From: a virus
DNA length: 20,130 nucleotides
IMG/VR virus record: IMGVR_UViG_3300030116_006645
Span: 1-20,130 of that record
Strand: one strand, 5' to 3'
A program made the position numbers and the translations under genes. Below are positions 2,824 through 20,130 of the stretch, piece after piece (within the stretch, counting starts at the first letter, position 1; each line of letters opens with the position of its first letter). The notes under the pieces are model-generated. The model had not been told where the DNA came from. It made no database searches and worked only from the letters and a program-made list of their open reading frames with translations.

Positions 2824-2852
2824 TTGTTTATACATAAAGCAAGTATTATACA
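2824..2852 (+). promoter_or_regulatory. Weak candidate promoter for the helicase gene
   Basis: TTGTTT (2824-2829) and TATACA (2847-2852) are separated by 17 bases, the usual sigma-70 spacing, but match the consensus only 3/6 and 4/6. If real, the TTG at 2824 would be part of the -35 box and could not be the helicase start codon, which agrees with choosing ATG 2881. Confidence 0.22.
2845..2850 (-). promoter_or_regulatory. Candidate -10 element for the minus-strand replication block
   Basis: On the minus strand the six bases read TATAAT, a perfect sigma-70 -10 box, 45 bases upstream of the ATG at 2800. No good -35 box lies at the right spacing (CTATTA at 17 bases is weak), so this is a candidate only. 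It lies in the single divergent gap 2801-2880 and overlaps a weaker plus-strand candidate, so the two transcription starts could compete. Confidence 0.35.
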
Positions 2853-2880
2853 TCAAATTAGAAATAATAATAGGTTAGTA

Positions 2881-4314
2881 ATGGATTATAAATTTAAAAC
2901 AAAGCCATACGACCATCAAATAAAAGCATTAGGTGCTTGTCATAACAAGGAAAATTTTGCTTTATTTATGGAAATGGGTACAGGAAAATCAAAAGTATTA
3001 ATTGATAATATTGCCATGTTGCATGATAGAGGCAAAATTAATAGTGCGTTGATAGTGGCTCCAAAAGGTGTTTATAGAAACTGGGAAAAACAGGAAATAC
3101 CAACTCATATGCCAGAGCATGTGCCATACAAAATAATAGTATGGAATCCATCCTCAACAAAGTTTGTTAAAGATTACGGTGCTTTTATTAAAGACCAGGA
3201 CAATCTTAAAATATTTTTAATTAATATTGATGCGTTCAGCACCTTAAAAGGTCAAGAAATTGCAAAACGATTTTTGATTTCTACACAGTGCTTGATGGCC
3301 ATTGATGAATCAACAACAATAAAATCACCAACAGCGAAAAGAACAAAAACAGTATGCAATTTAAGAACTTTTGCAAAGTACAGAAGAATACTAACTGGAT
3401 CGCCAGTAACAAAAAGCCCTTTAGATTTGTATACACAATGTTATTTTCTTGATCCAGAGCTTTTGGGTTTCTCTTCTTATTATTCTTTTAAGAATAGATA
3501 TGCTGTAATGATTAGCAGAAGCGTGGCTACTCATTCTTTTAAACAAATAGTTGATTATCAAAGACTTGATGAACTTGAAGCAAAATTAAATCAATTTTCT
3601 TATAGAGTATTAAAATCAGAGTGTCTTGATTTACCAGATAAAGTTTATACTAAACGTTATATTGAAATGACACCTGAACAAAAAAAGGCATACATTGAAA
3701 TGAAAAATTTTGCTATTTCCGTTTTAGAAAAACAAACAGTTACTGCAGCTGGTATATTAACACAGATGATTAAGTTACATCAAATTACCTGTGGGCACTT
3801 AATTACGGATGAAGGTAAAACTGTTGAATTAAAAAATAACAGAATTAATGAACTTATGAATACTTTGGAGGAGATTGATGGAAAAGTTATTATTTGGGCG
3901 GTTTACCGACATGATATTAAAAAAATTGAAAAAGCGATTGCACAAAGATACGGAGAGAACTGTGTTAAATCTTATTTTGGTGATACACTTGATGTGGATC
4001 GCCAGGATATCGTTAATGCTTTTCAAGATAGAGAAAATGATCTTAGATTTTTTGTCGGTAATCCGAGGACCGGAGGGTATGGTCTCACTCTTACTGCTAG
4101 TAACACTGTTATCTATTACAGCAATAGCTACGATTTAGAAGTTCGCATGCAATCAGAAGATAGAGCGCACAGAATTAGTCAAGAAAAGAAGGTAACGTAC
4201 ATAGATTTTATTGCTGAAAAGACTATTGATGAAAAAATAATTAAGTCGCTTAGAAACAAAATTAATATAGCTACAAAAGTTTTAGGTGAGGATTTTAAAG
4301 AATGGCTGATTTAA
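2881..4314 (+). CDS. SNF2-type superfamily 2 DNA helicase/ATPase
   Basis: A 477-residue protein with the helicase motifs in order: Walker A MGTGKS (about residues 32-37), motif II as DEST (142-145) rather than DEAH, motif III TGSP (172-175), motif V GGYGLTL (about 398-404) and motif VI QSEDRAHRISQ (424-434) with its two arginines. This is the two-RecA-lobe SNF2 layout used to translocate on or remodel double-stranded DNA, common as a phage replication or recombination helicase. It is shorter than chromatin remodellers and has no accessory domain visible. The frame extends back to TTG 2824, but ATG 2881 is preferred: it has AGG about seven bases upstream and the text before it looks non-conserved. 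It is the only plus-strand gene in the left 13 kb, and it overlaps the convergent nuclease gene by 20 bases. Confidence 0.88.
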   Translation: MDYKFKTKPYDHQIKALGACHNKENFALFMEMGTGKSKVLIDNIAMLHDRGKINSALIVAPKGVYRNWEKQEIPTHMPEHVPYKIIVWNPSSTKFVKDYGAFIKDQDNLKIFLINIDAFSTLKGQEIAKRFLISTQCLMAIDESTTIKSPTAKRTKTVCNLRTFAKYRRILTGSPVTKSPLDLYTQCYFLDPELLGFSSYYSFKNRYAVMISRSVATHSFKQIVDYQRLDELEAKLNQFSYRVLKSECLDLPDKVYTKRYIEMTPEQKKAYIEMKNFAISVLEKQTVTAAGILTQMIKLHQITCGHLITDEGKTVELKNNRINELMNTLEEIDGKVIIWAVYRHDIKKIEKAIAQRYGENCVKSYFGDTLDVDRQDIVNAFQDRENDLRFFVGNPRTGGYGLTLTASNTVIYYSNSYDLEVRMQSEDRAHRISQEKKVTYIDFIAEKTIDEKIIKSLRNKINIATKVLGEDFKEWLI

Positions 4315-13067: not shown

Positions 13068-13076
13068 AATCTCCTA

Positions 13077-13088
13077 ATATTGCAATAT
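13077..13088. repeat. 12-bp perfect palindrome, candidate operator
   Basis: ATATTGCAATAT is its own reverse complement and lies just upstream of the ribosome binding site of the minus-strand virion operon (AGGAG at 13071-13075), thus in its leader. It could bind a dimeric regulator or be a chance product of A/T richness. Confidence 0.3.
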
Positions 13089-13141
13089 ATGTGATTGTAA
13101 AAGGCAAGTAGGCTAATCTTGAATATTTAAAGCCAATTAAT

Positions 13142-13155
13142 CCTATATTTATAGG
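13142..13155. repeat. Interrupted palindrome CCTATA-TT-TATAGG, candidate operator
   Basis: Two perfect six-base arms flank a two-base centre in the middle of the divergent gap, where a regulator acting on both operons would be placed. Only the symmetry is observed. Confidence 0.28.
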
Positions 13156-13207
13156 CAAATAATTGCTATATGACAATAGATAAATACTGAGTTAGAAAGG
13201 AATATAT

Positions 13208-13885
13208 ATGGCAGAACAGACAAAACGTGAATTTCAAGCCTTTAGACCCTTTGGACCTACTATTTTTGCAGGATCATTACCCGAATCATTAATAAAATTA
13301 TTAGATGATAAGGCAACAGAGATTATGACTAATAAAAAAATGTCTAAAGATTGGGATCATTCAATGCATTTAGCAGGTAACGTTAAACAAGAAGTAAGAT
13401 ATCCTCCAGCTTGGATGATATCAACTGAGTTCGCACCCATGAGTAATTCTTTGCAAATGATAATACACAAATATTTAGAACATCCGCCAATGGTAAACAC
13501 TATATCTCCAGATAAAGTAGATAAAATATTAATAACTAGCATGTGGGTTGTATCACAGTGGTCTGGAGACTTTAACCCTTCACATGTTCATGATGGTGAT
13601 TTGTCTGGCGTAATATATTTACGAATACCTCCAAGTTTAAAAGAGGAATATGAAAGAGAAGATCATTTTCCATGTGTAGGAGATATTCAATGGCAGTGTG
13701 GACAAGCTGCTACTTTTAATGGACATACATTTCAAGCAACGCCAAAAGTCGGAGATATTTATCTGTTTCCGTCTTGGCTATCACACATGGTTTATCCATT
13801 TAGAACACAAGATGAGGAAAGAAGATCTGTTTCTTTCAATGTAACTGTTAAAAGAAAAAAAGAGAAAGATGAGCAACAAATCTAA
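13208..13885 (+). CDS. 2-oxoglutarate/Fe(II)-dependent oxygenase-like protein (PF13759/TIGR02466 type)
   Basis: A 225-residue protein heading the plus-strand operon; AGGA lies seven bases before ATG 13208. The C-terminal half shows the double-stranded beta-helix signature of this oxygenase group: NPSHVHDGDLSGVIYL with iron-ligand candidates H126/H128/D129, then VGDIYLFPSWLSHMV with distal H193, and RRSVSFN with R205/R206 as the 2-oxoglutarate carboxylate anchor. The first motif is HxHD rather than plain HxD, as in the relative at 19303. Such enzymes hydroxylate proteins, nucleic acids or small molecules using O2 and 2-oxoglutarate; the substrate here is unknown. The basic tail KRKKEKDEQQ is unusual. 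It overlaps the next gene by 17 bases. Confidence 0.82.
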   Translation: MAEQTKREFQAFRPFGPTIFAGSLPESLIKLLDDKATEIMTNKKMSKDWDHSMHLAGNVKQEVRYPPAWMISTEFAPMSNSLQMIIHKYLEHPPMVNTISPDKVDKILITSMWVVSQWSGDFNPSHVHDGDLSGVIYLRIPPSLKEEYEREDHFPCVGDIQWQCGQAATFNGHTFQATPKVGDIYLFPSWLSHMVYPFRTQDEERRSVSFNVTVKRKKEKDEQQI

Positions 13886-14156
13886 TACACCATTTCCAAT
13901 GGTCAGAATAACATGGCATGACGCAAAAGATACTGAAACAGGTTGGCTACACATAAAAGAAATTGTTTCTGCTCCGTTGGCCGTGTGCCAAGAAGTAGGA
14001 TACATGGTTGTAAACAATGATAACAAAATAGTAATAATGCGATCTTGGTGTATAGACAAAGATGATAATCATGGTGGAGGTGCAATAGCAATACCTCGTG
14101 GTTGGGTTAAAAAAATAGAGTATTTAGAAGTAAGTTATGGAAGAAATAATAATTAA
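13869..14156 (+). CDS. Conserved hypothetical protein, 95 residues
   Basis: A small soluble protein lying between two oxygenase genes, overlapping the first by 17 bases and the second by 20. ATG 13869 is preceded by a purine-rich AAAGAGAAAG. The sequence alternates hydrophobic and polar residues, suggesting a small beta barrel: FPMVRITWHDAKDTETGWLH, VGYMVVNNDNKIVIMRSW, GGGAIAIPRGWVKKIEYL. It has similar short unknown relatives in phages, from memory. Its position suggests co-expression with the oxygenases, but no role can be assigned. The overlaps at both ends and the absence of any better frame support it as a real gene. Confidence 0.72.
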   Translation: MSNKSNTPFPMVRITWHDAKDTETGWLHIKEIVSAPLAVCQEVGYMVVNNDNKIVIMRSWCIDKDDNHGGGAIAIPRGWVKKIEYLEVSYGRNNN

Positions 14157-14658
14157 AAAAATATCAGTTATAAAAACTAAAATAAACATCGACAAATTAC
14201 ATTTAATAGAAAAATACGTAAACATGTATGAAGGTAAATTTAAAAAGAGAACATGGGGCGACAACGTAAAAACATCTCTTAGCTTATGTCAAAATGTTTT
14301 ACATAACGTAGTGGATTTTAAAGATATTAAAAATGAAATAGAAGAACAACTTAGAAATTATTTTGAAAAAAATGAACAAAATATACCTTTTTTAATTAAT
14401 GAATCATGGGTAAATTTATTAGATAAATACGGATATCAAGACTATCACACTCATAAACCTGCATTTGCTGCGGGCACTTTATATATTAATGATGAAAATT
14501 CAGATATAGAATTTGCTACTTTCCCTGAAGATAATACAAAAAAATTAACACCAAAAAAAGGGGATTTGTATTTTTGGCCCGGAGATTTGCATCACAGAGT
14601 TATGGATTCAGACAAAAGAAGAGTATCATTATCATTTAACGTATATGCAACACAATAG
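14137..14658 (+). CDS. 2-oxoglutarate/Fe(II)-dependent oxygenase-like protein
   Basis: A 173-residue protein. Motifs in order: YQDYHTHKPAFAAGTLYI with H104-x-H106, then GDLYFWPGDLHHRVM with distal histidine H152 or H153, and RRVSLSFN with R161/R162, the 2-oxoglutarate-binding arginine region. This is the same general pattern as the 13208 and 19303 proteins but with a different, shorter N-terminal half (helical, Lys/Asn-rich), so it is not a recent duplicate. The HxH in place of HxD leaves open which residue completes the iron triad. It overlaps its neighbours by 20 and 14 bases, so it is probably translated by coupling. Substrate unknown. Confidence 0.78.
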   Translation: MEEIIIKKISVIKTKINIDKLHLIEKYVNMYEGKFKKRTWGDNVKTSLSLCQNVLHNVVDFKDIKNEIEEQLRNYFEKNEQNIPFLINESWVNLLDKYGYQDYHTHKPAFAAGTLYINDENSDIEFATFPEDNTKKLTPKKGDLYFWPGDLHHRVMDSDKRRVSLSFNVYATQ

Positions 14659-15169
14659 TAATACAGAATTTGTTATGTATGTTGATAATTTTTTATCAAT
14701 TGAAACATTAAAATCATTACAAGAAACCTTTACAAAAATTGGTTACATGGAAGTAAAAAACCCAGAGGGTAAGGTTTATGGCCATAGACATACTTTTCCA
14801 GAAAGTTTTCACAATGATCCTTTATTAAAATTAATTAAAAATTATTTTTTTCCTAATAGAAATTTAGAGCCCATATCTGTTAGTGCTCATTTACGACAGA
14901 ATGACAAAGAGCCTTTGTTTCACATTGATACTAATAAAGGAAATGTAGCCAATTTTTTATTTTATGTAAAAGGTAAGCCACTATTAAATAATGGCACTGG
15001 TTTCATTTACAATAATCAATTATCTTCGCATATAGGTTTTGTTGAAAACAGAGCTTTATTTTTTAATGGCAGTAAAATATTACACTCCGACTTACAATCT
15101 TTTGGTGATAGTTCTGAAAGATACACGCTTAATATTTTTTATAAAGAGAATAGTAGTGATAATAAATAA
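14645..15169 (+). CDS. 2-oxoglutarate/Fe(II)-dependent oxygenase-like protein (HxD type)
   Basis: A 174-residue protein with a classical triad: PLFHIDTNKGN giving H93-x-D95, distal H147 in SKILHSDLQ, and R159 in SSERYTLNIFY. The fold is suggested by beta segments FLFYVKG, TGFIYNN and ALFFNGS. The N-terminus VMYVDNFLSIETLKSL is typical of prolyl-4-hydroxylase-like or phytanoyl-type oxygenases. Start choice is uncertain: ATG 14645 gives a 14-base overlap with the previous gene; ATG 14675 (residue 11) fits the family start better. Neither has a good Shine-Dalgarno. It is distinct in sequence from the other oxygenases here. Hydroxylation is predicted; substrate unknown. Confidence 0.75.
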   Translation: MQHNSNTEFVMYVDNFLSIETLKSLQETFTKIGYMEVKNPEGKVYGHRHTFPESFHNDPLLKLIKNYFFPNRNLEPISVSAHLRQNDKEPLFHIDTNKGNVANFLFYVKGKPLLNNGTGFIYNNQLSSHIGFVENRALFFNGSKILHSDLQSFGDSSERYTLNIFYKENSSDNK

Positions 15170-15680
15170 AAAAAATCTATTTGCAACAACATTACAAATA
15201 TTTCAATTTAATGACGAAGAGATAAAACCTTTATTAGATGAAGTGAACAGTAAAAAAAATTTAATTACAAAAACATCAAGCTCACATAATTATTTTACTG
15301 ATTATAAAAACCCAATACAACTTTATGAGTATGAAAAATTAATCAATGAAGTTGCAAATAAATATTCCAATGAAGGGTTAACATTGAATCTTTTAAATTA
15401 TTGGACGGCTGTTTATGGTAATAATTCTATACATGGTGCGCACCAACACGATTCAGTGGGTGTAAACTTTTCTACTGTGCTTTATTTAACAAATGGCGGT
15501 GCCACGACATTTTTATCACCACATAATGCAACAAATCAAAGAGTATATGATGAAGAATCAATATTAGGTAAATTAGTTATTTTTCCTTCTACATTGTGGC
15601 ATTACGTTTCATACAGCGGAGATTTAGAAAGAATAATTATTTCATCTAATATACAAATTTATGGTCAGAACCATGCATAA
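15156..15680 (+). CDS. 2-oxoglutarate/Fe(II)-dependent oxygenase-like protein, GTG start
   Basis: The open frame reaches back to ATG 15039, but the first 39 codons lie wholly inside the previous gene and look like out-of-frame text. GTG 15156 is preferred: it gives 174 residues, the size of its two upstream neighbours, a 14-base overlap like the preceding junction, and an AAGAGA element about six bases upstream. Motifs: IHGAHQHDSVGVNFS with H96-x-H98-D99, LVIFPSTLWHYV with distal H149, and LERIIISSN with R159. The pattern matches the HxHD-type oxygenases. It overlaps the glycosyltransferase gene downstream by 8 to 20 bases, so the two are probably co-translated. Confidence 0.75.
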   Translation: MIINKKNLFATTLQIFQFNDEEIKPLLDEVNSKKNLITKTSSSHNYFTDYKNPIQLYEYEKLINEVANKYSNEGLTLNLLNYWTAVYGNNSIHGAHQHDSVGVNFSTVLYLTNGGATTFLSPHNATNQRVYDEESILGKLVIFPSTLWHYVSYSGDLERIIISSNIQIYGQNHA

Positions 15681-16455
15681 AATTTTTGTCGGAACTCCTT
15701 GTTATGGCGGATTAATCACAACAGAGTATTTCAAAAGTTGTATGCAACTTGTAGCTCTTGCAGCCACTAAAAAAATAGAATTACAATTTGGAACGATAGG
15801 AAATGAATCATTAATAACTAGGGCAAGAAATACTTTAGTTCAACTATTCATGGATGGCGATTACACACATCTTTTATTTGTTGATGCTGATTTAGCTTTT
15901 AATCCTGATTCAGTGATGAGAATGCTTGATTATGATAAAGATGTTGTAACTGGTATTTATCCAAGAAAAACCATAGATTGGATAAAAGTAAAAAAAAGAC
16001 TTAAAGATAATCCAGATATATCAGAAGACGAGCTATTAGCTGCATCACTGCAATATAATTTAAATGTAAAAGATCCTAACAACATACTACTTGAAAAAGG
16101 ATTTATTGAGGTTTTAGATGGTCCTACTGGTTTTATGATGATAAAAAAACAAGTGTTTGAACGAATGGCCAATGTTTATCCAGACTTAAAATTTAAGCCA
16201 GATCAACACATTAATCAATCACATGAAAAAGAATTTGATTATCATAAAACATCTGATTGGAATTATGCTTTCTTTGACACCATGATAGAGTCAGAAACAC
16301 GCAGATATCTGTCAGAAGATTACGCTTTTTGTCGTTTATGGCAAAATATGGGTGGTAAAATATACGCTGATATTCTATCTGGTATGACACACTACGGTAA
16401 TTATGCATTTAAAGGTAATGTTGGAACTCAATTCTTGCCTCAAAACAATAAGTAA
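15661..16455 (+). CDS. GT-A-fold glycosyltransferase-like protein
   Basis: A 264-residue protein beginning with IFVGTPCYGG, a first strand/loop typical of family-2-like sugar transferases. Visible motifs are LITRARNTLV (51-60), the metal and nucleotide-sugar DxD motif LLFVDADLAF (D75, D77), GIYPRK, the acceptor-side LDGPTGFMMI (152-160) and YLSEDYAFCRLW (E219/D220 as catalytic-base candidates), with H244 in THYG. It would move a sugar from a nucleotide donor to an acceptor in the cytoplasm. ATG 15661 gives a 20-base overlap with the preceding oxygenase; ATG 15673 (MHKIFVG) gives an eight-base overlap and a more family-like start. No good Shine-Dalgarno favours either. The acceptor is unknown: hydroxylated protein, DNA base or glycan are possible. 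Confidence 0.82.
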   Translation: MVRTMHKIFVGTPCYGGLITTEYFKSCMQLVALAATKKIELQFGTIGNESLITRARNTLVQLFMDGDYTHLLFVDADLAFNPDSVMRMLDYDKDVVTGIYPRKTIDWIKVKKRLKDNPDISEDELLAASLQYNLNVKDPNNILLEKGFIEVLDGPTGFMMIKKQVFERMANVYPDLKFKPDQHINQSHEKEFDYHKTSDWNYAFFDTMIESETRRYLSEDYAFCRLWQNMGGKIYADILSGMTHYGNYAFKGNVGTQFLPQNNK

Positions 16456-16469
16456 TTTATTATAAAAGC

Positions 16470-18314
16470 ATGCAATTAGTAGACCTTAAATTTCGCCCTG
16501 GAGTAGATAAGCAAGATACTGCATATTCTGCAGGTGATGATAGAAAATACATTGATTCTGATTTTGTAAGATTTCATTATGGAAAACCAGAAAGATGGAG
16601 CGGATGGACAAATCTCCCTAATCCTAACAAAACAATTGTAGGAGTGGTAAGAGATACACACTCATGGGTGGGTTTAGACGGTTTAAGATATTTAGCTTTA
16701 GGAACCAATAGAAAATTATACATTTACAACGAAGGAGCGGTGTATGACATAACTCCTATTCGTGAAACACAAGCTTTAACCAATCCTTTTACAACAAATG
16801 GCACTACCACGGTGTCTGTAGCCGACACTGGTCATAACGCAATACAAGGAGATTTTGTAACTTTTGACTCTTTTTCATCAATTGATGGATTAGATATGAA
16901 TCAAGAATTTGAAATTACATCTATAACTGATGCAAATAATTACACAGTAACCCACACTAGCACAGCATCTGGATCAACATCTGGAGGTGGCGGATCAGGT
17001 AACGCAAAATATCAAATAAATGTTGGTCCAGCTACTTCAACGTATGGTTTAGGTTGGGGCACAGACACTTGGAGTAGTGGCACTTGGGGTACGGCTAGCT
17101 CTGCATCTGATGTTGTCATAGTAGGAAGAAACTGGTCATTAGATAATTTTGGCGAGGATTTAATAGCTACTGTCTTAGATGGTGGCACATTTATTTGGGA
17201 CACTTCAGGAGGTTTAGCTTCAAGAGCAACAGCTTTATCAAACGCACCAACTGCATCAAGATTTAGCATTGTTTCAACAGATACGAGACATTTATTAATA
17301 TTTGGCACAGAAACTACAATCGGCACTCCTGACACTCAAGATGATCTATTTTTTAGATTTTCAGATAGAGAAGATGCAACAAACTACACACCTGTAGCTA
17401 CAAACGAAGCTGGATCTTTGAGAATAACAGATGGGTCAAAAATAGTGGGGGCCGTAAAATCATCAGGACAGATACTTGTTTGGACCGATACCTCATTACA
17501 CGGCATACAGTTTGTTGGTACACCGTTTACTTTTGGTCTTAGACAACTAGGCGCAAACGCTGGCCTTATAGCTCAACATGCAGCCATAGAGGTCAATGGT
17601 GTAGCTTATTGGATGTCTGATGATGCATTCTATCTTTATGATGGTGTTGTTAAAAAAATGCCATGTTCTGTGCAAGATTTTGTTTTTGATGATTTAAGTT
17701 ACACAAATAAAAACGACATAGCTGTAGGATTAAACACAGCGTATAATGAAATAATTTGGTACTATCCTTCAGCTAATGCATCACAAATAGATAGAGCCGT
17801 AGCTTATAACTACTTGGAGGGAACTTGGTATACATTAAGTTTAGGAAGAACTACTTGGCTTGGTGCTTACGTATATGAGAAACCAATAGCCACTGAATAC
17901 AACGCCAGCGCAACAGCTAACGTATCTACCATACTAGGATTAACTGCTGGTTCATCTTTTGTGTATGAGCATGAGTCTGGCAATAACCAAGCAGATGGAT
18001 CAGCTATCACAGCATTCTTAGAAACAGGTTCTGTTGAAATAGCTGACGGTGATCAATTAATGTCCATTAGTAAATTAGTGCCAGATTTTGATAATTTAAC
18101 AAATACGATGACTGCTAGACTTACATTAGAGCAATACCCTCAATCCTCTTCTAATGTTACATCAAACGCAAGTATCACTAGCACGACAGAAAAAGTAAGC
18201 GTTAGGGGTAGAGGAAGAGCTGTTAAAATAAGGTATACAACTAATACAATAGATGATACACCTTGGAGACTTGGTTCACAGAAATTAGAAATTAGACCTG
18301 ACGGTAGAAGATGA
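16470..18314 (+). CDS. P22 gp10-like tail (nozzle/stabilisation) protein
   Basis: A 614-residue protein starting at ATG 16470, 14 bases after the glycosyltransferase stop, without a clear Shine-Dalgarno. The N-terminus LKFRPGVDKQDTAYSAG then YIDSDFVRFHYGKPERWSGW, and later segments (LFFRFSDREDATNYTP, GSKIVGAVKSSGQILVWTD, YWMSDDAFYLYDG, AVAYNYLEGTWYTLS), fit the phage stabilisation family of P22 gp10, a beta-propeller that closes the tail below the portal adaptor. Identification is by remembered pattern. Residues about 162-178 are a Ser/Thr/Gly linker (GSTSGGGGSG), followed by the Trp/Gly/Thr segment YGLGWGTDTWSSGTWGTASS (192-211). It is the clearest virion gene in the plus-strand operon and supports a short-tailed phage. 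It overlaps the next gene by four bases (ATGA). Confidence 0.72.
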   Translation: MQLVDLKFRPGVDKQDTAYSAGDDRKYIDSDFVRFHYGKPERWSGWTNLPNPNKTIVGVVRDTHSWVGLDGLRYLALGTNRKLYIYNEGAVYDITPIRETQALTNPFTTNGTTTVSVADTGHNAIQGDFVTFDSFSSIDGLDMNQEFEITSITDANNYTVTHTSTASGSTSGGGGSGNAKYQINVGPATSTYGLGWGTDTWSSGTWGTASSASDVVIVGRNWSLDNFGEDLIATVLDGGTFIWDTSGGLASRATALSNAPTASRFSIVSTDTRHLLIFGTETTIGTPDTQDDLFFRFSDREDATNYTPVATNEAGSLRITDGSKIVGAVKSSGQILVWTDTSLHGIQFVGTPFTFGLRQLGANAGLIAQHAAIEVNGVAYWMSDDAFYLYDGVVKKMPCSVQDFVFDDLSYTNKNDIAVGLNTAYNEIIWYYPSANASQIDRAVAYNYLEGTWYTLSLGRTTWLGAYVYEKPIATEYNASATANVSTILGLTAGSSFVYEHESGNNQADGSAITAFLETGSVEIADGDQLMSISKLVPDFDNLTNTMTARLTLEQYPQSSSNVTSNASITSTTEKVSVRGRGRAVKIRYTTNTIDDTPWRLGSQKLEIRPDGRR

Positions 18315-18769
18315 TATATATTAAAGACCATGTTTTATCTAACGAAGATATCGATCAATTAAGACCTTTTGTTGAACAACCAGATTGGAATTCTTGGGAT
18401 CAATCACTACAAGTCAACGTTCCACAAACAAATGATATTGTGCAAAAAGTAAAAAATACAATAAATGCTGACTTTAACAATAGTCATCCATTATTTGATG
18501 AAGTAGATTGGTCACAAATAGTAGTATATGATACGGGGTGCTCAAAAAATTTTCATTTAGACCATGCTTCAGACAAAACAACAGGCACATCTGTTACTTT
18601 TTTAAATGAAGATTTTGTTGGAGGTGAGGCTATTGTAGAGGGCGTGCAAATTGCTCCTATTAAAGGTAGAACTTATTACATGGACGGAAAAATGTATAAG
18701 CACGCTGTTTTAAATGTTATAAAGGGTGCGAGATTTACTTTAACGTGTTGGTATAAGAAAAAAGATTAA
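18311..18769 (+). CDS. Prolyl-4-hydroxylase-like 2-oxoglutarate/Fe(II) oxygenase
   Basis: A compact 152-residue protein with a complete triad and anchor: NFHLDHASDK (H82-x-D84), MYKHAVLNV (H131) and GARFTLTCWYK (R141). The segment TSVTFLNEDFVGGEAIVEG, followed by IKGRTYYMDG, matches the core of P4H-type enzymes, where Gly-Gly-Glu precedes the strand leading to the distal histidine. It lacks extra domains, like other phage P4H-like proteins. ATG 18311 overlaps the tail protein stop in ATGA, so it is tied in translation to a virion gene. Protein hydroxylation is the usual role of the family; a virion target is inference. Confidence 0.82.
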   Translation: MIYIKDHVLSNEDIDQLRPFVEQPDWNSWDQSLQVNVPQTNDIVQKVKNTINADFNNSHPLFDEVDWSQIVVYDTGCSKNFHLDHASDKTTGTSVTFLNEDFVGGEAIVEGVQIAPIKGRTYYMDGKMYKHAVLNVIKGARFTLTCWYKKKD

Positions 18770-18936
18770 TGGCTAAAATTACAATCACTAGATTACCTAA
18801 CGCTACACCAGAGTATGATGCTGGTCAGTTTGATCAAATGATTAGATTACTTGATCAAATTATACTTTTATTAAATACTAACTATCAACAAGATTTAAAA
18901 GAAGAAACAGAATCGGAGGGTTTTTTCCTTGGCTAA
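18769..18936 (+). CDS. Small conserved-type protein, 55 residues
   Basis: A short frame with ATG inside a TAATG overlap with the upstream oxygenase stop. The product begins MAKITITRLPNATPEYDAG, has an amphipathic Leu/Ile/Asp helix FDQMIRLLDQIILLLNTNY (21-39) and ends acidic then hydrophobic, EEETESEGFFLG-like. It overlaps the next gene by eight bases and carries that gene's GGAGG Shine-Dalgarno in its last codons. The tight packing at both ends and the lack of any alternative frame make it real. I recall similar tiny proteins next to structural genes in marine phages, but no function is known. Confidence 0.65.
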   Translation: MAKITITRLPNATPEYDAGQFDQMIRLLDQIILLLNTNYQQDLKEETESEGFFLG

Positions 18937-19291
18937 CACATTTAAAAGCGCAATGGTTGATATAACATCAACAGATTTAACAACCATATTAACTGTGCCG
19001 ACAGCTAATCCTGGTGCCACACCTCCTGTGCCACCCACAACGGATGTTGTTAAATCCATTCTAATTTGTAATGACTCAGGTAGCACCACACTTGTTGATT
19101 TAGAAGTTTTAAGATCATCTGCAACTTTTGAATTATTTAAAGCAAAAAGTGTTGCAACTAACACTACAACAGAATTACTATCTCAGCCTCTTGTTTTGCA
19201 AGAATCTGATGTATTAAAAGCGCAAGCCAACGCTGCTAATCAAGTTCACATAATTGTAAGTTTTATGGAGGTTACAAAAGGTCAACTTTAG
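18929..19291 (+). CDS. Putative small beta-rich virion protein, 120 residues, TTG start
   Basis: No ATG exists at the right place; TTG 18929 follows GGAGG (18915-18919) by nine bases and opens a frame beginning ANTFKSAMVDITSTDLTTIL. The sequence is rich in Thr, Ser, Val and Ala with alternating strands (VVKSILICNDSGSTTLVDLE, NQVHIIVSFMEV) and a Pro-rich turn NPGATPPVPPTT, fitting a small all-beta structural protein such as a head-decoration or tail accessory. This assignment rests on composition, remembered similarity and neighbours only. It may be translated partly by coupling with the 55-residue gene it overlaps. Confidence 0.65.
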   Translation: MANTFKSAMVDITSTDLTTILTVPTANPGATPPVPPTTDVVKSILICNDSGSTTLVDLEVLRSSATFELFKAKSVATNTTTELLSQPLVLQESDVLKAQANAANQVHIIVSFMEVTKGQL

Positions 19292-19302
19292 AAAGGATGA
19301 AT

Positions 19303-19878
19303 ATGAAATTACAAGGTATGTTTATTACTCCTGTGTTTACCACAGAGTTAGAAAATAATTATAATCTAGAACAAAAACTTTATGATTTACAAAAACAAGA
19401 TAAAGTTGGATCACCAAAATCAAACGTAAAAGGGTGGCACAGTAAAGAAGATTTGTATCTGCATGAAGGCTTTAAAGAAATAACACAAGATATAATGTTT
19501 CAAGCACAAGAATGTTTTAATGCATTAAGTGTAGAGAGAAAATACGGTCCTGAAATGACAGGGTTATGGGGTATGATAAATCCACCAGGTGCCAGAAACA
19601 CAGTGCACACACATCCCTTAAATTTTTTATCTGGAGTATATTATTTAAAAGTGCCAAAAAATAGTGGCAATCTTGTTTTCATAGAACCAAGACCACAAGC
19701 CGAGGTGCTTGATCCGCCTAAAAACCAAGACTTGTCGGTTCATTTTGCACATAGTGTACAGTGGGAAGCAAAGGAGAATAACTTGATTTTTTTCCCATCA
19801 TGGTTACAACATGAGGTACAACAAAATAATTCTAATCAAGATAGAATTATTTTAAGTTTTAATTTAAGATGGAGATAG
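19303..19878 (+). CDS. 2-oxoglutarate/Fe(II) oxygenase-like protein (PF13759/TIGR02466 type)
   Basis: A 191-residue protein. ATG 19297 directly abuts GAAAGG, leaving no room for the ribosome; ATG 19303, with AAAGGA about five bases upstream, is the better start. Motifs: ARNTVHTHPLNFLSGVYYL with H102-x-H104, LIFFPSWLQHEV with distal H170, and QDRIILSFNL with R181 (numbering from 19303). SGxYYL followed by FFPSWLxH is the signature of this oxygenase group, the same subfamily as the 13208 gene but too divergent for a recent copy. It sits after a probable structural gene. Hydroxylation is predicted; the substrate is unknown. Confidence 0.85.
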   Translation: MKLQGMFITPVFTTELENNYNLEQKLYDLQKQDKVGSPKSNVKGWHSKEDLYLHEGFKEITQDIMFQAQECFNALSVERKYGPEMTGLWGMINPPGARNTVHTHPLNFLSGVYYLKVPKNSGNLVFIEPRPQAEVLDPPKNQDLSVHFAHSVQWEAKENNLIFFPSWLQHEVQQNNSNQDRIILSFNLRWR

Positions 19879-19882
19879 CAAA

Positions 19883-20130
19883 ATGCCAATAATAAAAAAC
19901 GCAGAACAAATTGGAACAGTTACATTAGAAGATGGCAGAGTGGTTCCAAAATACAACGTTAAAACAGAAACTACAATTACAAATATCGATACAGGTCAAG
20001 AATATGATTCTGAGGAGGCTATGCAAGCTGACATAGATGATCCAAACACTTCTACAACCGCAGAAAAAATTAAGCGAGATGTAAAAGTATTTGCTCCATC
20101 ATTAAAAGATATGTTAGGTCAGACTCCTAA
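19883..20130 (+). CDS. Hypothetical protein, 3' end beyond window
   Basis: A frame from ATG 19883, four bases after the oxygenase stop, with GGAGA about eight bases upstream, stays open for 82 codons to the window edge. The visible protein begins PIIKNAEQIGTVTLEDGRVV and contains TTITNIDTGQEYDSEEAMQA and VKVFAPSLKDMLGQTP; it is soluble, with probable beta strands then an acidic helix. The last sequence looks like a tail end, but no stop codon is inside the window. I do not recognise the family. Confidence 0.6.
   Translation, partial: MPIIKNAEQIGTVTLEDGRVVPKYNVKTETTITNIDTGQEYDSEEAMQADIDDPNTSTTAEKIKRDVKVFAPSLKDMLGQTP

Follow-up and report, generated by a model that had tools for sequence, protein, structure and literature searches.

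A module of six divergent 2-oxoglutarate/Fe(II) oxygenase-superfamily genes with fixed and exchangeable slots in virus IMGVR_UViG_3300030116_006645

Few accessory genes recur in ocean phages as often as those for oxygenases dependent on 2-oxoglutarate (2OG) (PMC9602691, PMC9599517), and sets of several such genes are already known. HTVC023P-type pelagiphages have eight distinct types of 2OG oxygenase, often close together (PMC9599517), S-CREM1 has ten oxygenase genes, of which eight form a single run together with a JmjC gene (PMC9964418), and S-SCSM1 has 24 (PMC9602691). These reports contradict the assumption of the first-pass annotation of this DNA that marine phages are known to carry oxygenases only singly, so that the novelty of the set is weaker than first claimed. 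In the literature examined, no substrate was reported for any ocean-phage 2OG oxygenase.

Our window, the whole stretch of 20,130 nt that was analyzed from this virus, harbors a rightward module with six oxygenase-superfamily genes, ox1 to ox6, spanning positions 13208 to 19878; all six predicted open reading frames were found on the + strand, as were the other genes of the module described below. Like this module, those of the HTVC023P-type phages (HTVC023P, HTVC027P and 023Pt_psg01) combine several non-orthologous 2OG oxygenases with a nearby stabilization-protein gene, and HTVC023P and HTVC027P also have a glycosyltransferase-like (GT) gene of the same PHROG (34% identity). However, their stabilization protein is only 39–41% identical and represents a distinct lineage, which places the virus outside that group on this protein alone, and an orthologue of ox6 or sm1 was not detected in them. 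With S-CREM1 and S-SCSM1, the module shares the presence of many divergent PF13759/PF13640 oxygenases per genome. In contrast, these are large T4-like cyanophages in which synteny with the stabilization gene was not seen, and the run in S-CREM1 is located near genes for a collagen-like protein and a tryptophan halogenase.

The genes of the module are separated by −20 to +14 nt, and the module is translationally coupled and of the late type. To its left are leftward ejection/tape-measure-like genes, and the divergent intergenic region between this virion operon and the oxygenase module (13068–13207) is, judging from gene orientation, the presumed promoter region; consensus promoter matches in it were no more frequent than in shuffled sequences or by chance. 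To the right, tail collar/fibre genes follow in relatives. The window stops inside the module, and in relatives additional oxygenases are encoded further downstream. The first-pass annotation had described the oxygenases as interleaved with tail and structural genes. This holds insofar as one recognized virion gene lies within the span, stab (16470–18314; phrog_3287, 2e-78), a virion structural protein whose named homologues are annotated as 'stabilization protein'. It does not hold for ox1 to ox4, which are grouped together with one small gene and the GT gene. The small gene, sm1 (13869–14156; phrog_25889, 3e-11), encodes a conserved 95-aa protein and is kept between slots A and B. The GT gene (15661–16455; phrog_1574, 2e-40) is unvarying in relatives, and its product has a DxD motif at 'VDADLAF', with Anp1/GT2 matches below threshold; because its structure prediction reached a pLDDT of only 48, no fold is proposed for it. 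Downstream of stab, sm2 (18769–18936; conserved, 55 aa) directly precedes p1276 in 70 of 70 loci, p1276 (18929–19291; phrog_1276, 9e-7) encodes a small conserved protein, and a further conserved small protein, truncated at the window end (19883–20128), is kept 3' of ox6 in relatives.

Five of the six oxygenases exceed the Pfam gathering threshold (27 bits for both PF13759 and PF13640). Four are of the PF13759 type, namely ox1 (13208–13885; HVH...H...R; 9e-20, 71 bits), ox2 (14137–14658; HTH...H...R; 8e-12, 46 bits), ox4 (15156–15680, with a GTG start at 15156; HQH...H...R; 3e-7, 31 bits) and ox6 (19297–19878; HTH...H...R; 1e-24, 87 bits). The start of ox6 is the ATG at 19297, and a second in-frame ATG follows at 19303. 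ox6 also passes the NCBIfam cut-off of TIGR02466 (score 120 versus a cut-off of 62.5; 1e-34), ox1 falls just short of it (60.4), and ox2 and ox4 score lower. The fifth, ox5 (18311–18769; HLD...H...R), is of the PF13640 type (3.5e-8, 34.7 bits). The sixth, ox3 (14645–15169; HID...H...R; phrog_274, 2.7e-11), has no Pfam match, its sequence staying below the PF13640 gathering threshold; its profile, however, matched the PF13640 group at 96%. AlphaFold2 predicted a confident 2OG-oxygenase fold for ox3 (pLDDT 89.8), and the top 50 Foldseek matches of the model in the PDB were all 2OG oxygenases, chiefly PHD2 and P4H. Thus, ox3 resembles PHD2/P4H-type hydroxylases in its predicted fold and its HxD...H...R site, but the identity to them is only 11–16%. 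Searches with tblastn found no relatives of ox3 in named phages, although structural relatives do occur in cyanophages; a scan of bacterial genome contigs found no relatives of ox6.

An iron motif, a distal histidine and a following arginine were indeed present in all six proteins. The textbook iron site of 2OG oxygenases consists of two histidines and one carboxylate, and a distal arginine normally binds 2OG. ox3 and ox5 show the HxD/E...H triad, whereas ox1, ox2, ox4 and ox6 have HxH...H, a three-histidine site that departs from it. These residues are almost invariant in relatives: H93, H147 and R159 of ox3 are kept in 64 of 64 sequences and D95 in 63, the PF13759-type sequences have HxH in 179 and HxD in 5 of 184 cases, and arginine occupies the 2OG position in 64/64 (ox3), 11/11 (ox5) and 177/184 (PF13759 type) relatives. 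A double-stranded beta-helix is supported by the model for ox3, by PF13640 for ox5, and for the other four by profile homology to 2rg4 and 3bvc, structures of the same family (PF13759/TIGR02466) with the same HxH...H...R pattern, which are, however, uncharacterized bacterial proteins. The fold or an iron site was not missing from most of the six, and profile and model evidence assigns all of them to the 2OG/Fe(II) oxygenase superfamily. Chance motif matches are excluded by the family scores and the fold. The PHROG names 'DNA endonuclease V' and 'DNA endonuclease' (phrog_274, phrog_2297) were dropped for these proteins because the identical residues match 2OG families.

The view of the six genes as different kinds forming an assembled set was borne out. 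Pairwise identities are 14–28%, the proteins are connected by profiles alone, and the tree consists of slot-specific clades with supports mostly of 98–100. Copies within a genome are not closer to each other than to those of other genomes, and recent tandem duplication was therefore rejected. All six genes are under purifying selection (median dN/dS 0.047 for ox1 and 0.041 for ox6). A synteny survey of about 80 related contigs revealed that the set is kept together in relatives and is not scattered. In all informative relatives, the module starts with ox1 (slot A; 35 of 35 loci), and slot E, that of ox6, is filled in 55 of 55 loci. The remaining slots exchange mostly among oxygenases, with up to 11 in 15 kb: ox2 is present in some relatives only, the slot of ox4 is likewise variable, with its clade confined to slot B or the position immediately 5' of the GT gene, slot D, occupied here by ox5, holds an oxygenase in 11 of 74 loci, and each of the 30 inserts found between GT and stab encodes an oxygenase. 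Thus, ox1 and ox6 are fixed parts of the module and the remaining oxygenases are exchangeable, a distinction by which enzymes whose target is probably constant can be told apart from those that vary.

New here is an insertion in p1276 that tracks the ox6 orthologue. The proline-rich stretch ANPGATPPVPPTT (aa 26–38; 19004–19042), with the constant core PxxPTT, is lineage-specific, and every p1276 homologue within that lineage carries it. Loop-bearing p1276 was followed by an ox6 orthologue in 118 of 118 loci with room downstream, compared to 0 of 118 loopless relatives with such an orthologue, and intermediates with 59–67% identity in stab retain both. At the nucleotide level, the loop occurs in 43 distinct versions among 60 sequences, through synonymous changes that leave its residues constant. 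The association is no more than suggestive because it stems from a single lineage and hence from one origin. The loop is accompanied by sm1 and ox1 as consistently as by ox6. HTVC023P-type phages also encode a p1276 homologue, but without the insertion and alongside several oxygenases. In one relative (L121), slot E holds a PF13759-like gene with 24% identity and p1276 lacks the loop; a search for relatives of this oxygenase returned the L121 protein alone. Two of five tests linked alleles of p1276 to the variable oxygenase slots (p 0.02–0.03), but these weak p-values are uncorrected for ancestry and were set aside. We infer that the insertion is a candidate substrate of ox6.

What the oxygenases act on can be weighed from these observations. 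The most likely reading, which we favor tentatively, is that they act in the cytoplasm as protein hydroxylases and, during particle assembly, modify virion proteins encoded in the same and flanking operons. It is suggested by the embedding of the module among virion genes, the location of ox6 homologues beside virion genes in other phages as well, the constant slots A and E, the variable slots with mainly oxygenases, the prolyl-hydroxylase-like folds nearest to ox3 and the p1276 loop. With Fe(II), O2 and 2OG bound, an enzyme would add one hydroxyl group in each turnover. Constant substrates would be the targets of the fixed enzymes, the best candidate for ox6 being the PxxPTT loop encoded immediately 5' of it, and the exchangeable ones would act on variable surface parts, such as the tail fibres encoded just 3' of the module; the GT-like protein may add sugar to hydroxylated residues, and the particle surface would become stiffer or chemically varied. 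The 'dedicated hydroxylation programme' of the first-pass annotation is plausible as a candidate role with respect to virion proteins, and the p1276 loop with ox6 provides one specific clue. Operon position means co-expression and says nothing of the substrate, and p1276 is a putative virion protein at most. Collagen-like Gly-X-Y repeats were absent from the relatives scanned for them. A more specific version, in which ox6 would be a dedicated, probably prolyl, PxxPTT hydroxylase, possibly followed by glycosylation by the adjacent GT, while its exchangeable sister enzymes diversify other virion proteins, appears quite unlikely. If true, it would mean that a phage structural protein is hydroxylated after translation by an enzyme of the phage itself. 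In this lineage, ox6 and the invariably linked insertion of its neighbor offer a specific enzyme and a specific peptide for testing.

Alternatively, the enzymes could reprogram host metabolism, consuming 2OG or hydroxylating host metabolites or proteins (e.g., ribosomal) and shifting the nitrogen/carbon status during infection, as published for cyanophages (PMC3037559, PMC9602691); SAR11 iron-transport genes are upregulated under HTVC027P infection (PMC12753301). We consider this possible but unlikely: one enzyme would suffice for 2OG drawdown, which poorly explains sets of six to eleven enzymes that diverge from each other and show slot-specific orthology, and the genes lie in a virion module and not among early or metabolic genes. 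Tailoring of a surface glycan, lipid or peptide by the oxygenases and the GT-like protein in sequence is unlikely. The bicyclomycin cluster reportedly contains several 2OG oxygenases that act in this manner. The GT-like gene always adjoins oxygenases, tryptophan halogenase genes do so in S-RIM44 and S-CREM1, and PMC5930311 provides a precedent of oxygenase-rich biosynthetic clusters; but the module has no scaffold-forming synthase or other pathway enzyme, and an exchangeable enzyme set would demand a very tolerant pathway. AlkB- or TET/JBP-like modification or repair of nucleic acids is improbable. In its favor are the PHROG labels of phrog_274 and phrog_2297 and a related family, phrog_2954, whose profile weakly resembles TET-like dioxygenases (E 0.028), whereas none of the six has an AlkB or TET/JBP Pfam match, the closest solved folds to ox3 are protein hydroxylases, many of them prolyl, and natural-product oxygenases, and the genes are grouped with late virion and not with replication genes. 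The HxH majority could, in addition, be non-catalytic or independent of 2OG, its three-histidine site serving another oxidation or mere iron binding. In collagen P4H, an Asp-to-His change, which creates such a site, abolishes activity (PMC2767507), and given the near-constant HxH of the PF13759 proteins, the four oxygenases concerned may work by a different chemistry. The retained arginine and the strong purifying selection speak against a non-catalytic or 2OG-independent role, which we consider highly improbable.

The pelagiphage 'ferrochelatase' partner looks like another oxygenase; should this prove true of such partners, the ecological interpretations published in PMC9599517 and PMC11561400 would both have to be reworded. 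Homologues of the two fixed enzymes were also found in other phages: that of ox6 is located between gp23 and gp3 in P-SSM2 and between tail-fibre assembly and neck genes in S-RIM44, and that of ox1 in the baseplate region of HTVC008M.

All six oxygenase genes claimed by the first-pass annotation were found in the window, which comprises the full 20,130 bases of a record classed in the database as linear and probably a fragment. PF13759 was matched above the curated cut-off by ox1 (13208–13885), ox2 (14137–14658), ox4 (15156–15680) and ox6 (19297–19878), and PF13640 by ox5 (18311–18769). The remaining gene, ox3 (14645–15169; all six on the + strand), had no match in the Pfam search; it matches the phage oxygenase profile phrog_274. 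An AlphaFold2 model of ox3, built from 33 relatives (mean pLDDT 89.8), retrieved only 2OG oxygenases among the best 50 Foldseek matches listed from the PDB, mainly the HIF prolyl hydroxylase PHD2 (TM-scores 0.56–0.68 on the query), and the predicted structure thus agrees with the suggested 2OG-oxygenase fold. At the profile level, the three kinds are tied together: profile-profile comparison gave 96% for ox3 versus the PF13640-type, 89% for ox3 versus the PF13759-type, and 94% for the PF13759-type versus the PF13640-type. In PHROG, 2OG-oxygenase proteins (window 14645–15169 and 18311–18769, L089:5316–5798, and L094) bear the names "DNA endonuclease V" (phrog_274) or "DNA endonuclease" (phrog_2297), which are spreading in phage annotation.

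All 184 PF13759-type rows, taken from the window and its related loci, have the first His; two positions later, 179 have His and 5 have Asp. The distal His is retained in 181 rows and the Arg in 177. The resulting HxH...H pattern, found in four of the six window oxygenases, could form a three-histidine site; collagen P4H loses its activity when Asp is mutated to His at the corresponding position (PMC2767507). In ox3 (64 rows) and ox5 (11 rows), HxD...H...R is nearly invariant. In comparisons with close relatives, the median dN/dS was 0.047 for ox1, 0.15 for ox2 (two comparisons), 0.11 for ox3, 0.24 for ox4, 0.19 for ox5 and 0.041 for ox6, and 0.075, 0.080 and 0.038 for the glycosyltransferase-like gene (GT, 15661–16455), the stabilization protein gene (stab, 16470–18314) and p1276 (18929–19291), respectively. 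These low values indicate that the genes are maintained.

Successive genes overlap by 14–20 nt each from ox1 through sm1 (a small conserved protein), ox2, ox3 and ox4 to GT, and by 1–8 nt from stab through ox5 and the small sm2 to p1276; gaps of 5 nt and 4 nt precede ox6 and the "last" gene. This layout suggests one coupled transcription unit; in a promoter scan, consensus matches were not above shuffles. The module is flanked on the left, in the window, by leftward genes that match ejection and tape-measure-like proteins, and on the right, in relatives, by leftward tail collar/fibre genes. Farther away, the window encodes a primase that matches a TOTE-conflict AEP domain (PF22548; 3–1136, − strand) and, on the opposite strand, a separate SNF2-type helicase (2824–4314, +).

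Among 80 related loci fetched from IMG/VR by the stabilization protein, the order of sm1, GT, stab, sm2, p1276 and "last" is kept. The gene ox1 opens the module (slot A) in 35 of 35 informative loci, and slot E holds ox6 in 55 of 55. The other slots are variable: each of the 30 genes inserted between GT and stab is an oxygenase, and occupants of slots B (after sm1), D (that of ox5) and F include non-oxygenase genes as well. The richest locus, L067, has 11 oxygenases in 15 kb by HMM, plus a JmjC_2 match. In the same module, a DUF6817 (HD-like) domain is fused to a PF13640 oxygenase domain (L067:9439–10320). Recurrent oxygenase neighbours are phrog_7084 or weakly DUF6065-like proteins (L067:10313–10996, L066:7142–8582), a family with 26 ORFs among the related loci.

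In a tree of 91 PF13759-type rows, whose deep forks are without resolution, clades track the slot: the ox1 clade is entirely in slot A, the ox6 clade entirely in slot E, the ox4 clade wholly in or beside slot B, and a 24-row clade wholly in slot F. The set was therefore assembled, as had been supposed from the window, and largely inherited slot by slot; fresh duplication as its source is rejected.

Immediately upstream of ox6, the small conserved protein p1276 (phrog_1276) carries a proline-rich insertion, ANPGATPPVPPTT, which is present in 70 of 70 homologues from the window's relatives (one proline altered in four) and missing from those of DSL-LC04, HTVC023P, HTVC027P, 023Pt_psg01 and CRP-901. 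Counting only loci that extend 1.5 kb or more downstream, an ox6 orthologue lies within about 1.1 kb in 48 of 48 window-group loci and 70 of 70 loci from the loop DNA pattern, two sets of overlapping records, and in 0 of 118 loopless relatives. A scan with a distant ox6 recovered intermediates (stab 59–67% identical) that retain ox6 at 49–59% identity and have diverged insertions, e.g., VPTASPGLTGTAPVFPTT; hence, what stays constant is P[VT]xPTT, corresponding to P33, P36, T37 and T38 of the window protein. Codon changes within the loop are synonymous, with 43 distinct sequences among 60. The co-occurrence spans one lineage only, in which ox1 and sm1 co-occur as well, and the ox6 slot of L121 holds a distant PF13759-like gene in a locus that lacks the loop. 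The loop of p1276, itself a putative virion protein, is a candidate substrate of ox6.

The best-supported reading, if a tentative one, is late hydroxylation of virion proteins: the fixed oxygenases would modify constant virion components late in infection, and the exchangeable ones variable components. Fold and family, conservation of the site, purifying selection, genomic location, the slot pattern and the co-occurrence of loop and ox6 are observed; the substrate class, the modified residue and a role for GT are inferred. Action of the oxygenases on host metabolism, or on a glycan or small molecule, is a less likely alternative, and action on nucleic acid is less likely still.

The first-pass annotation regarded single oxygenases as the known state of marine phages, a view that the literature does not support. 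HTVC023P-type pelagiphages are reported to encode eight distinct, non-orthologous 2OG oxygenases, often close together (PMC9599517), T4-like cyanophages commonly 1–5, S-CREM1 ten (PMC9964418), and S-SCSM1 24 of four subfamilies (PMC9602691); these papers name no tested substrate. The window set is thus of a known kind, in a distinct lineage whose stab shares 35–48% identity with that of named and related groups. S-CREM1 has one run of eight annotated 2OG genes and one JmjC gene (L095:1096–10575, OP535465), located a few genes downstream of genes for a collagen-like protein and a Trp halogenase; this run is a further natural test case for protein hydroxylation.

The pelagiphage "ferrochelatase" phrog_2954 (L088:5295–5915, HTVC023P gp67; L059:9579–10109; L076:9837–10370) is probably another 2OG oxygenase. 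The Pfam search of gp67 gave zero matches, and hence no ferrochelatase match. Among the relatives HxDR is invariant and the distal H-[W/S]-R is kept; the profile matched PF13640-type oxygenases at 75% (GT control, 1%), in an alignment that pairs the His-Asp and the distal His, and did not match the PF13759 profile. The published pelagiphage ferrochelatase/oxygenase pair may be two oxygenases.
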